DNA of 64,000 nt from the NCBI RefSeq assembly GCF_002157855.1, contig NZ_CP020880.1, positions 1,550,001 to 1,614,000 on the forward strand. Reading direction: 5' to 3'. Position 1 is the stretch's first letter. The number at the start of each line of letters is the position of its first letter. Shown here piece after piece: positions 15,751 to 60,436 of the stretch. Origin of the DNA: Sutcliffiella horikoshii (GTDB taxonomy: Bacteria; Bacillota; Bacilli; Bacillales; Bacillaceae_I). The notes under the pieces were generated by a model. The model saw only the letters and a program-made list of their open reading frames with translations. It ran no database searches and had not been told where the DNA came from. The translations under genes were made by a program, and so were the position numbers.

Positions 15751-15769
15751 AGGGGGGTCTGACCCCCCT
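15751..15769 (+). repeat. REP-like hairpin, copy 1 (GGGGTCTGACCCC core)
   Basis: A perfect stem of six G and six C around TCTGA, extended by A/T. It lies inside the hut operon between hutH and hutU. No T-run follows, so it is not a standard terminator, though it could pause transcription or stabilise mRNA ends. The same core occurs at 20698 and 60420. Confidence 0.85.
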
Positions 15770-19794: not shown

Positions 19795-20682
19795 TTAGTT
19801 TGTTGATTTCTTTTGGAAAAGTTTATAAAGTGCCTGTGTACCGCTATTTTCTTCTCCACTTGCAGAAAGCTTCACATACATTTCACGAGCCAAGGAAAGA
19901 CCTGGAACATCAAGTCCCATTTTGTCTGCTTCATCAAGGGCGATTTCCATGTCTTTGATAAAGTGTTTGACGAAAAAGCCAGGCTCATAGTTTCCTGCGA
20001 TAATGCGAGGAGCAAGATTTGATAAAGACCAGCTTCCGGCTGCCCCGCTTGAAATGCTTTTTAGGACATCTTCAGGATCCAGTCCTGCGGTCTCGGCGTA
20101 AGCCAAAGCTTCACAAACACCGATCATGTTCGTGGCAATAGCAATCTGGTTGCACATTTTCGTGTGCTGTCCTGCTCCAGCCTCACCTTGGTGGATGATA
20201 TTTGTACCTAACGCTTGGAAGATAGGCTGGCATGCTGCAAAAGCTTCTTTGTCCCCGCCTACCATGATTGTCAGGCGAGCTTCCCTGGCTCCAATATCTC
20301 CACCGGAAACAGGGGCATCCAAACTATGTAAGCCGCGTTCCTTTGCTAGCAGATATATTTGTTTGGCTAATGTCGGAGTGGAGGTAGTCATATCAATCAG
20401 GTATGCACCTTTTTCGGCATTAGGTAAGATACCGTTGTCTCCTAAATAAATCTCTTCTACATCTTTTGGATAACCGACCATGGTGATCACAACATCCGCA
20501 CCGCGAGCTGCCTCACCAGCACTTGGCTTCCACACCGCACCGTGCGAAACCAAACCCTCAGCCTTCTCCCGCGTCCGCGTAAACACACTAACCTCAAACC
20601 CACGATCCAACAAATGCCTCGCCATACTACTACCCATCACACCCGTACCAACAAAAGCAACCTTATGTAATTCTCTGTTCAT
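19795..20682 (-). CDS. ykwC: 3-hydroxyisobutyrate-dehydrogenase-family oxidoreductase (YkwC-like)
   Basis: This 295-residue NAD(P)-dependent beta-hydroxyacid dehydrogenase has a Rossmann N-terminus (VGTGVMGSSMARHLL). The substrate block DAPVSGGDIGA and the catalytic lysine block GAGQHTKMCNQI follow, and the C-terminus has GAAGSWSLSNLAPR. These match YkwC closely; the physiological substrate is unknown. The 5' part is striking: codons 6-46 end only in T or G, whereas later codons are mixed. A REP-like hairpin lies 16 bases upstream of the start. Confidence 0.92.
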   Translation of the reverse strand: MNRELHKVAFVGTGVMGSSMARHLLDRGFEVSVFTRTREKAEGLVSHGAVWKPSAGEAARGADVVITMVGYPKDVEEIYLGDNGILPNAEKGAYLIDMTTSTPTLAKQIYLLAKERGLHSLDAPVSGGDIGAREARLTIMVGGDKEAFAACQPIFQALGTNIIHQGEAGAGQHTKMCNQIAIATNMIGVCEALAYAETAGLDPEDVLKSISSGAAGSWSLSNLAPRIIAGNYEPGFFVKHFIKDMEIALDEADKMGLDVPGLSLAREMYVKLSASGEENSGTQALYKLFQKKSTN

Positions 20683-20697
20683 GTGTAAATACCTCCT

Positions 20698-20710
20698 GGG
20701 GTCTGACCCC
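20698..20710 (+). repeat. REP-like hairpin, copy 2
   Basis: GGGGTCTGACCCC followed by five T. It overlaps the 5' untranslated region of ykwC. Left of it, 20581-20640 contains about 23 A, 25 C, 9 T and 3 G. Right of it, 20761-20820 contains about 11 A, 1 C, 21 T and 27 G (hand counts). Confidence 0.85.
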
Positions 20711-20963
20711 TTTTTGTCTTTTTTTTTCTAGTTTTTTATTCCCCTATTATACAGGTTTTTTTGGGGTGTTGGTAGATTTGTAGGTGGTGGGGTGGGGATC
20801 TATAATTTTGGGAGGAATGAAGTGGGGTAATTAGTTATAATATTTAGAAAAATAAAGAATTTTGTAGTATAATAGGAGAAATTGATAGTTTAGGACGATG
20901 TGTCTTTTTAAAAGGATTGAACGATAATAAGATCACGATAGATTACGAAGGGAGGAACGTGTA

Positions 20964-22811
20964 ATGAGTACCCCTGACTCTTTATTAAAAAAGGAGAATA
21001 CAAAATCTGTGGAATCCATTTCTAAGGTCCAGCTTATTATTGTCGTTTCCGATGTAGGGGATATACAATATGTCTCTTCTACATGTGAAGCATTATTAGG
21101 ATATGCTAGGGCAGATCTGATAAATACGAGGTTAGAGAACTGGATTAATTCGGAAGACCTATATTTAATAGAGAGCTTAATCTACCAACCCTCCCATCAA
21201 ACTCACTGTTATTTTCGTATGAAAAGGAAGGATGGGACTCTTGTTTGGATGGAAGCGGTACTGTCTGAAGTCAAATCATCTACAGGGGAAGAAAAAGAAA
21301 TCGTTTTAATGCTTTCCCGTACATCGGATTATCAGAATTCCACTATCCAAGATAGAGGTACGAGCATCGCTATGCCCACTAGCCAAAGGAGAAAAAATGA
21401 GGACCTCCAAATAGATGAAGATTATTCTGCATATGACCTTATTGAGTACCTGCCGAACGGAGTATTCATTTTTGTTGATGGGATAATCAAGTATGTGAAT
21501 GAAGCAGGTACGTCCATGCTTGGGGCATGCCATAAAGAACAAATTCTTGAAACCTCTGTTTATGAATACATAGAAGAAAATTATCATGAAATTGTGGAGA
21601 AAAGAATCAAGTCGGTCCAACAAGGATACCGAGTGGGGCAAATGGAACAACGATGGAAGAGGTTTGACGGGCGGGCAATAGATGTGGAGATTACTTCTAA
21701 TCATACTACTTTCAAGGGAAAACCTGCTTCTTTTGTCATGCTGGTGGATATTTCGCACCGGAAGAGCTTTCATAAAATTTTGCAAAACAGTCGAGAACGT
21801 TTTCGAAAGCTTGTGCAGAATTCTATTGATACCATCGGCGTGATTTGTGAAGAAAAATGGACGTTTATTAATGAATCTGGATTAAAAATGCTTGAAGTCG
21901 ATAATTATGGGGAGATATTTGGAAAAAGCATTTATGATAATCTCCCTAAAGAAGACTTTGAAAAGATATGGCAAGAAGTGCATGAACAACATAATGGAAT
22001 GAAGTTGCCGACATTTGAACAAGAATGGAAGACGATGAAAGGAAATGCCATTCATACCGAGCTCGTTGGAATACCCACGACTTATTTGGGAAAAGACGCC
22101 ATGCAAGTTATTATCCGTGACATAACAGAGCGGAAACAAGCCGAAGCATTGATGCTGCAATCGGAAAAGCTTACTGTCGCAGGTCAATTGGCAGCCGGAA
22201 TAGCGCATGAAATCCGTAATCCTCTTACAGCTATCAAGGGATTCTTTAAACTTTTAGAAAGGGAGATGGAAGAAAAGAAAGAATACTTCCACATAATTGA
22301 GTCTGAGCTGAGCAGAATCGAACTTATCCTAAGTGAGTTACTTTTGCTCGCAAAACCGCATCAAGTATATGTGCATCCGGTTTCCGTTCATTCCCTGCTT
22401 AAGGATGTAACAACGCTTTTAGAAACGCAGGCGATCATGAACAATGTATGGTTTGATTTAAAATTGAAGGCAAAGACTCCAACCATAAAATGCGATGAAA
22501 ATCAGATGAAACAGGTGTTTATCAATTTAATTAAAAATGGGATAGAAGCAATGCCAAGTGGAGGAACAATCTATATTGATACAGAGGATGCTGGTGATGA
22601 AGTAGTGGTTACGTTTCGTGATGAGGGGACTGGCATCTCAGAAGATATTATCAAGAGGCTCGGGGAACCATTTTTCACAACCAAAACAACGGGAACTGGC
22701 TTGGGGTTGATGATTACGTTTAATATCATTAAAAATCACCATGGAACGGTAAACGTAACAAGTGAAGTGAATGAAGGAACCCAAATAGAAGTTCGATTTC
22801 AAAAGGCGTGA
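20964..22811 (+). CDS. Cytosolic PAS-domain sensor histidine kinase (sporulation-kinase type)
   Basis: This 615-residue kinase has no membrane segment. Three PAS-like domains (about 20-115, 150-255 and 275-375) precede a HisKA domain with phospho-acceptor His415 in AGIAHEIRNPLTAIKGF. A HATPase domain follows, with QVFINLIKNGIEAM (N box), DEGTGIS (G1) and TGTGLGLMIT (G2). The HisKA motif is that of KinA/KinC/KinE kinases feeding the Spo0F-Spo0A phosphorelay, and no response regulator gene is adjacent, which fits an orphan phosphorelay kinase. The start has GGGAGG at good spacing. Confidence 0.9.
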   Translation: MSTPDSLLKKENTKSVESISKVQLIIVVSDVGDIQYVSSTCEALLGYARADLINTRLENWINSEDLYLIESLIYQPSHQTHCYFRMKRKDGTLVWMEAVLSEVKSSTGEEKEIVLMLSRTSDYQNSTIQDRGTSIAMPTSQRRKNEDLQIDEDYSAYDLIEYLPNGVFIFVDGIIKYVNEAGTSMLGACHKEQILETSVYEYIEENYHEIVEKRIKSVQQGYRVGQMEQRWKRFDGRAIDVEITSNHTTFKGKPASFVMLVDISHRKSFHKILQNSRERFRKLVQNSIDTIGVICEEKWTFINESGLKMLEVDNYGEIFGKSIYDNLPKEDFEKIWQEVHEQHNGMKLPTFEQEWKTMKGNAIHTELVGIPTTYLGKDAMQVIIRDITERKQAEALMLQSEKLTVAGQLAAGIAHEIRNPLTAIKGFFKLLEREMEEKKEYFHIIESELSRIELILSELLLLAKPHQVYVHPVSVHSLLKDVTTLLETQAIMNNVWFDLKLKAKTPTIKCDENQMKQVFINLIKNGIEAMPSGGTIYIDTEDAGDEVVVTFRDEGTGISEDIIKRLGEPFFTTKTTGTGLGLMITFNIIKNHHGTVNVTSEVNEGTQIEVRFQKA

Positions 22812-60415: not shown

Positions 60416-60436
60416 AAAAGGGGTCTGACCCCTTTT
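60416..60436 (+). repeat. REP-like hairpin, copy 3
   Basis: GGGGTCTGACCCC at 60420-60432, with four A before and four T after, giving an eight-base-pair stem. The left block 60301-60380 has about 41 A, 21 C, 15 T and 3 G. The right block 60471-60550 has about 17 A, 1 C, 38 T and 24 G (hand counts). It lies between divergent genes with nothing else recognisable in the gap. Confidence 0.85.

Follow-up and report, generated by a model that had tools for sequence, protein, structure and literature searches.

Outward-Directed G+T Skew Flanking a Dispersed Hairpin Element in Sutcliffiella horikoshii

Introduction

A stretch of 64,000 nucleotides of the Sutcliffiella horikoshii genome (positions 1,550,001-1,614,000 of the chromosome; genome size 4.3 Mb), henceforth called the window, contains a short palindrome whose two flanks deviate in base composition as mirror images of each other. 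Does this skew belong to the neighboring genes, or does it depend on the palindrome, and which process would produce it? The initial annotation had interpreted the pattern as strand-asymmetric, outward-directed mutagenesis or repair at a REP-like element. In the following, the window genome is labeled G000; other genomes are labeled likewise where they need to be told apart.

Composition at the ykwC Locus

The palindrome GGGGTCTGACCCC at 20698..20710 forms the center of the skew. To its left lies ykwC (19795..20682, minus strand; the gene name is that of the initial annotation), which encodes a 3-hydroxyisobutyrate-dehydrogenase-type oxidoreductase of 295 aa and points away from the hairpin. 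The gene's ribosome-binding site, AGGAGG on the minus strand, abuts the palindrome (20683-20710), and hence the element may also influence ykwC translation. The zone of skew on the left, at a distance of 40-220 bases, covers codons ~9-69 of ykwC (20477..20657, minus strand); here, the outward (minus) strand is rich in G+T and the plus strand almost free of G. The right zone at the same distance (20751..20931, plus strand) is intergenic and has a G+T-rich outward (plus) strand. A gene for a PAS-domain sensor histidine kinase of 615 aa (20964..22811, plus strand) starts beyond it.

A recount reproduced exactly the figures reported initially, i.e., three G among the 60 plus-strand bases at 20581-20640 and a single C among the 60 at 20761-20820. 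It also agrees that ykwC codons 6-46, 41 in a row, end in G or T and that later codons are mixed, with a third-position G+T of 0.46 from codon 71 on. Among 41,685 control codons, taken from ORFs in eight 20-kb stretches of G000, the longest third-position run of one such class comprises 27 codons.

The Hairpin Element and Its Copies

A whole-genome pattern count finds 44 exact copies of the palindrome GGGGTC[A/T]GACCCC in the G000 chromosome, while the reversed control pattern has no copy in this genome. Three of the 44 hairpins are located inside the window. The other two have skewed flanks as well: the second (15754..15766; L015) shows an outward G+T of 0.63 and 0.60 at 60-180 bases, the third (60420..60432; L017) 0.62 and 0.63. 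Besides the palindrome itself, the aligned copies share a TTCGAC box at 27-22 bases ahead of it, AAA-TCCT directly in front, and a T-run that follows. The copy next to ykwC, where the ribosome-binding site adjoins the palindrome, is devoid of TTCGAC. Some copies have other surroundings, e.g., paired hairpins with TTAA between them, and at least one site of this type is strongly skewed (L035 at 2000; 0.89 and 0.86). Across 43 sites, skew strength correlates neither with stem length nor with the TTCGAC box. In the aligned copies, the 5' foot of the palindrome carries no conserved GTAG tetranucleotide. The motif GGGGWSAS, which many repeats of TIR-associated tyrosine transposases (TIRYT) contain, is matched by GGGGTCAG within GGGGTCAGACCCC.

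The orientation of the copies tracks the chromosome half: GGGGTCTGACCCC is on the plus strand in 13 of 14 copies below 1.67 Mb, and GGGGTCAGACCCC in 11 of 12 copies at 2.97-3.74 Mb. Furthermore, 17 of the 44 hairpins are clustered in 123 kb around a transposase gene (G000 C1 3998138-4121443), three pairs of this cluster being spaced 73-94 bases.

Within the genus, eleven genomes carry 41-63 exact copies each. Exact copies number only two each in G003 and G017, where a wider pattern, GGGGYCNGRCCCC, reveals 61 and 67 copies, respectively. Eleven hairpins of the wider pattern are present in G004, and neither exact nor wider pattern occurs in G011 and G013.

Shape of the Skew across the Genome

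The flanks of all 44 hairpins of G000 were analyzed, with ORFs called by a simple length rule rather than taken from annotation. In the pooled sites, A and C fall and G and T rise on the outward-reading strand, and they do so on both sides of the hairpin. At 80-120 bases, third-position G+T of this strand amounts to 0.78 in genes reading outward and to 0.84 in genes reading inward, as compared to 0.47-0.50 beyond 320 bases. Since the outward strand behaves alike in both gene directions, the skew is not a matter of coding-strand composition, and the strand-asymmetric, outward and mirror-symmetric character ascribed to it from the single locus applies generally to both sides.

Pooling 128 sites of three genomes places the onset of the zone at 40-50 bases, its peak at 80-100 and its end near 220-240. 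The ~40 bases adjoining the hairpin are spared on each side, as had been noted next to ykwC, and the two sides of the oriented element are alike. Two-sided outward G+T at 60-180 bases, when compared with 4,200 control positions, reaches an empirical P < 0.05 at 38 and P < 0.01 at 28 of the 44 sites, whose P values are not all independent, as some hairpins are only 73-94 bases apart. The initial reading would have been refuted by genome-wide copies without skew; the pooled 44 sites show the skew. The flank on the transposase side (left flank of L032) is included in the gene-direction profile, the per-site P values, the divergence, parsimony, G<->T, one-class and two-class analyses, and the pooled zone; it is excluded from the per-flank fits, the state-mixing rate, the word test, the box/stem test, the codon-position counts, the four-state models, and the T/G ratio.

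Within the zone, intergenic DNA is less skewed than third codon positions (G+T of 0.62 vs. 0.74), whereas mutation free of any constraint would by itself produce the opposite order. The intergenic part also changes more slowly than third positions, and it may thus be held by other constraints. Chi-like or otherwise polar guide motifs were sought in 81 flanks of G000, where no word lies strongly above Markov expectation (largest z 3.6). The neighboring bases of the residual A and C reveal no sharp deaminase-like pattern; the largest context contrast is that of C preceded by T (ratio 0.58) to C preceded by C (0.86), and C followed by C is nearly unaffected (0.93).

Dependence on the Hairpin

The check proposed initially was a comparison of orthologous loci with and without the hairpin. 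For ykwC, 16 of 18 genomes of the genus were read (all but G001 and G002), and third-position G+T was taken over codons 2-50. An exact hairpin is located 15 bases before the start codon in 11 of the 16, and G+T is 0.82-0.90 in all of them. G003 and G017 carry GGGGTCTGGCCCC and show values of 0.80 and 0.76, respectively. In the hairpin-less genomes G011 and G013, with codon numbering off by a few codons, G+T is 0.45 and 0.59. G004 has a degenerate hairpin at this place (locus L058), no close cognate transposase but a protein only 40% identical, and a G+T of still 0.76, its codon numbering likewise being off by a few codons; possibly, its skew is a decaying footprint.

Along the same line, 80 named ykwC loci were compared, a set that apparently overlaps with the genus genomes, as some records look like the same genomes. 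The named loci nearest to the ykwC of the window are those of Bacillus sp. RO1 and CHD6a and of S. horikoshii, which suggests a place in the Sutcliffiella group. Four of them (Bacillus sp. RO1, CHD6a, and two of S. horikoshii) have the exact hairpin and a G+T of 0.89-0.96 over codons 9-55, one (B. tianshenii) has a variant hairpin and 0.79, and the 75 loci without hairpin show a mean of 0.495 (sd 0.075, maximum 0.68). From codon 90 onward, G+T is 0.45-0.50 in the five hairpin-bearing loci.

For 29 gene flanks, some of which belong to neighboring hairpins and are hence not independent, G+T is 0.781 as compared to 0.559 in hairpin-less orthologues (23 higher, 5 tied, 1 lower; Wilcoxon 3e-5). The latter were taken from G013 (28) and G011 (1) at an identity of at least 50%, and the left flank of L032 has no orthologue row. 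At distances above 320 bases, G+T is slightly lower with the hairpin than without it (0.489 vs. 0.530). The residual 0.559 may represent an older, decaying skew. The variant hairpins of G003, 35 of 61 of which were examined, show the same zone in weaker form, with third positions at 0.71-0.75 at 80-120 bases vs. ~0.50. In G017, six of the 67 variant hairpins were examined.

Among other hairpins, 31 T-tailed ones from G000 and G009 DNA show nothing comparable (third-position G+T of 0.49-0.56). No such skew was found at E. coli K-12 REPs in 400 kb, where two search motifs yielded 21 and 34 clusters. The same 13-mer as in G000 occurs in two genomes of one other genus with little or no skew in few codons (G086, 15 clusters examined, of 18 copies; G145, 9 clusters, of 110 copies). 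In a third genus, G185 (26 copies) shows a moderate skew at 40-120 bases, with third positions at 0.62-0.80 vs. 0.47-0.49 beyond 600, figures that derive from few codons in nine clusters (loci L306-L311). One and the same 13-mer thus goes along with differing skew in these three genomes, which indicates that lineage-specific factors matter. The term REP-like remains appropriate for a dispersed palindrome accompanied by a REP-type tyrosine transposase, but a REP-like hairpin is not sufficient for the skew. Altogether, the footprint is real, strong, and bound to the element.

The Associated Transposase Gene

G000 has a single Y1 transposase gene (L032:1262-1954; G000 C1 4005827-4006519). A hairpin is located 59 bases upstream of it, and the ~1.26 kb downstream contain no GGGGWSAS. 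The protein matches the Y1_Tnp domain (PF01797, 56.3 bits, cut-off 23), the only domain returned by a Pfam scan at E ≤ 0.001 in which the C-terminal HTH of subclass 2.1 was sought as well. It is related to E. coli TnpA-REP (chain 4er8_A, E=1.5e-4) and reaches 77.8 bits, at a cut-off of 80, with NF047646, the equivalog of REP-associated tyrosine transposases. A close cognate accompanies the hairpins in 11 genomes, with two copies in G005, and in 10 of the 11 the upstream hairpin is found 59-178 bases before the aligned transposase start. G003 and G017, the carriers of variant hairpins, encode a transposase of 60-62% identity; of the hairpin-less genomes, G011 has a remnant only, and G013 a protein of 38% identity. 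Its co-occurrence with exact or variant hairpins, and this only, makes the transposase a candidate participant.

Read outward from its hairpin, the transposase gene is skewed inversely, with a third-position G+T of 0.13-0.21 in 11 genomes, 0.28 in G017 and 0.37 in G003. In G000 the inverse skew extends along the whole gene (third positions 57% C, 25% A), and the gene downstream of it is also low in G+T (0.28). The transposase gene beside its own hairpin is hence an exception to the outward rule stated initially, and the model proposed below does not explain it. The G009 copy of the transposase gene contains one stop codon in the aligned stretch.

Substitution Pattern

The direction of change was studied in an alignment of three genomes, in which G009 and G008 are 92% and 89% identical to G000 at the ykwC locus. 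Of the 44 sites, 40 were aligned; L013, L018, L021, and L025 at 2000 are without a G008 match, and the rate tests are based on sites that bear the hairpin in all three genomes. Third-position divergence between G000 and G009 is 0.137 at 80-120 and 0.125 at 120-160 bases, vs. 0.178-0.185 beyond 320, although saturation could hide a raised rate. Divergence at all positions is slightly raised at 0-80 bases (0.087-0.096 vs. 0.077-0.082 beyond 320), where alignments are gap-rich and mostly intergenic, and nothing was drawn from it.

By parsimony, A/C>G/T changes amount to 64 of 457 at 60-200 bases and to 565 of 4265 far from the hairpin, while G/T>A/C changes amount to 113 of 1314 and 581 of 4059, respectively. 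Correspondingly, a one-class model leaves A/C>G/T unchanged (x0.98; 0.76-1.25) and reduces G/T>A/C (x0.59; 0.48-0.69). At fourfold sites, G<->T differences per G/T site are equal near and far (0.0620 and 0.0619); thus it is the keto state that is kept, and not a particular sequence. The lower divergence and the smaller number of G/T>A/C changes are in line with biased mismatch resolution no less than with extra mutation. Of the initial reading as mutagenesis or repair, the direction of change (outward-strand A>G and C>T) is retained; a raised mutation rate is not, as divergence is lower and the polarized counts reveal fewer G/T>A/C rather than more A/C>G/T changes. Whether the process adds mutations or only steers them, both readings fit.

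The kind of change is more telling. At fourfold sites, the T/G ratio falls from 1.51 far from the hairpin to 0.89 near it, with little change in the share of purines (0.505 and 0.549, respectively). This is predicted by A>G plus C>T and not by selection for G+T. In three classes of likelihood models fitted both ways, transition-only forms beat all-change forms by 5 to 35 log units. Among the four-state models at fourfold sites, the lnL of the transition-only and all-change forms is -1867.7 and -1885.4 with fixation bias, -1859.7 (the best model) and -1894.4 with raised A/C>G/T and a mixture of sites, and -1883.7 and -1888.6 with redistribution. A bias that runs through transitions speaks against selection for composition and favors the view that G-T mispairs are resolved in a strand-polar way.

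As to the encoded proteins, amino-acid-changing differences at first codon positions number 74 toward G/T and 33 away from it; at second positions they number 47 and 39, i.e., these are not pushed. The initial statement that the protein keeps the amino acids of its family is thus mostly right, with the qualification that first positions are pushed as well, and its corollary that the skew does not reflect selection on the protein is supported.

Discussion

Directly established are the position, extent, polarity and symmetry of the skew, its dependence on the element within the genus, the better fit of transition-only models, and the absence of any strong motif. These observations are best read as the outcome of strand-polar, transition-specific repair or synthesis. 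Specifically, we consider it somewhat probable that the hairpins are recurrent sites of breaks or nicks, from which the outward strand prevails at G-T mispairs over ~40-220 bases on each side. The palindrome would fold in single-stranded or extruded DNA and be cut, either by the REP/TIR-associated HUH transposase that the genome encodes or by a hairpin nuclease, for instance SbcCD. The REP-type HUH transposase is probably the nuclease, and cleavage by HUH enzymes is described to leave a 3'OH able to prime synthesis (PMC8266576). The 3' end at the element would then be extended outward, or a resected outward strand filled in, for up to ~200 bases. Wobble errors in the outward strand (G opposite T, T opposite G) would stay uncorrected, or mismatches would be resolved toward this strand; the same skew would also arise if mismatch repair, directed by a nick, removed the inward strand. 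As a G-T mispair presents a keto base on both strands, favoring the outward strand always yields G or T, so that A>G and C>T would accumulate on it and the mirror image would arise on the other side. Against this explanation stand the lowered third-position divergence, the inverse skew of the transposase gene, the skewless REPs of E. coli, and the little or no skew in G086 and G145.

The outcome of mutation vs. selection, judged by divergence, is model-dependent, and two further accounts compete here. Local hypermutation in the strict sense, one form of the explanation preferred here, would consist of error-prone outward synthesis that raises A>G and C>T ~20-30 fold at sensitive sites; we regard it as possible but lean against it. 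In two-class maximum likelihood fits, raised A/C>G/T alone, rapid at about half of the sites in the mixture, attains the best lnL (-2219.2, vs. -2227.3 for selection and -2227.9 for redistribution). With an empirical background the order of models is the same for all third and for fourfold sites, weaker at twofold sites and reversed there at 80-160 bases, and the best four-state model is likewise of this kind. However, such fits require 15-51% insensitive sites, 156 G<->T differences are expected with the mixture (131 without) where 108 are seen, third-position divergence is lower instead of higher, and states mix, in the flanks with the strongest skew, at just 1.35x the background rate (0.89-1.96). 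Selection on DNA or RNA composition, on the other hand, would act since an outward strand without A and C (and an inward strand without G and T) cannot pair with itself and leaves the hairpin or a transcript end unstructured; weak selection (scaled S about 1-2 per site) would maintain this state. In its favor, G/T>A/C changes are reduced and G<->T changes are not. Homogeneous per-flank fits prefer its fixation-bias form over extra mutation (lnL -2134.1 vs. -2171.4) unless insensitive sites are allowed. Yet selection on the keto state should favor A>T and C>G too, whereas the transition-only form is better by 17.7 log units at fourfold sites, and it would raise T and G in proportion, whereas the T/G ratio shifts as transitions predict. 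The skew moreover invades first codon positions, and the transposase gene is skewed the opposite way. We consider selection a rather unlikely cause.

Far less credit is due to the two remaining accounts. Reverse-transcribed copies of hairpin-ending transcripts, written back in the manner of retrons or DGRs, would, as we infer, account for the outward polarity and also for the transposase gene being skewed inversely, the cDNA strand being G+T-rich. Six genomes of skewed lineages (G003, 80% complete, G008, G010, G012, G016, and G017) contain no RVT_1 match, however; reverse transcription is thus not needed, and we set it aside as very improbable. That the elements insert where a skew pre-exists, or that the skew is ordinary composition of gene starts, terminators or the leading strand, would agree with their position near gene ends. 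We give this hardly any credence, because most of the skew is missing where orthologues of the same genes have no hairpin, other T-tailed hairpins do not exceed a third-position G+T of 0.56, and the skew appears on both sides and whichever way genes read. The coding, terminator and insertion-preference readings are refuted by the hairpin-less orthologues, the control hairpins and the two gene directions.

Returning to strand-polar repair or synthesis, a bolder version can be formulated: a domesticated HUH transposase might keep cutting dozens of fixed hairpins, each cut leading to short, error-prone outward resynthesis both ways, such that the repeats would be standing, strand-polar local mutators that rewrite neighboring gene ends in all descendants. 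We advance this version tentatively and consider it doubtful. We know of no evidence that REP/TIR-associated transposases are active, in living cells, at copies fixed in the chromosome. A mutational footprint with constant polarity and length would naturally document the sites, the frequency and the direction in which such elements were cut and resynthesized. If this holds true, small dispersed repeats can shape the sequence of neighboring genes and, slightly, their proteins. The footprint is directly testable and would offer a cheap screen of other repeat families for activity. In the literature searched, with subscription papers mostly outside the search, no compositional footprint of this kind is reported by title or start of abstract, and no text contains GGGGTCAGACCCC or GGGGTCTGACCCC.

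Comparison with Known Systems

The closest relatives are TIRtrons with their TIRYTs, mostly subclass 2.1 of the TnpA-REP superfamily, which share a Y1 transposase of the RAYT/IS200 kind. According to the sections of PMC3733652 and PMC6006769 at hand, TIRYT repeats are dispersed, some of them self-complementary, and have GGGGWSAS in common, to which GGGGTCAG of the present element fits; a compositional footprint in the flanks is not mentioned in these sections. As in TIRYT and RAYT systems, the repeat occurs in many copies in genomes with a cognate transposase. In the DNA examined here, by contrast, the hairpin is located only 5' of the transposase gene and not on both sides, and in many copies a TTCGAC box precedes the hairpin by 27 bases. 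In E. coli and Pseudomonas, REP/BIME-RAYT systems are portrayed as mostly intergenic dispersed palindromes with a HUH transposase that is usually single-copy (PMC8266576). The present element shares the mostly intergenic palindromes and the HUH transposase, but it has no conserved GTAG, and the E. coli REPs tested are without skew.

With regard to the footprint itself, human meiotic double-strand-break hotspots provide a likeness. There, one strand shows C>N and A>N changes and its complement G>N and T>N, the center of +/-100 bp is without asymmetry, and the asymmetry is ascribed to error-prone filling of resected DNA (PMC7615360). Common to both are a complementary base bias on the two sides and an unaffected center (~40 bases here). 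The hotspots differ in that they are eukaryotic, programmed by SPO11/PRDM9 and of a 2-kb scale, whereas ~200 bases around a fixed bacterial repeat and transitions are concerned here; neither is flank divergence at third positions raised here, though saturation could hide a rise.

The keto skew of replication strands on bacterial chromosomes has the same geometry, in that a G+T-rich strand leads away from a fixed point both ways. It differs in extending over megabases from one origin, whereas the element described here presents 44 miniature copies of 200 bases each.
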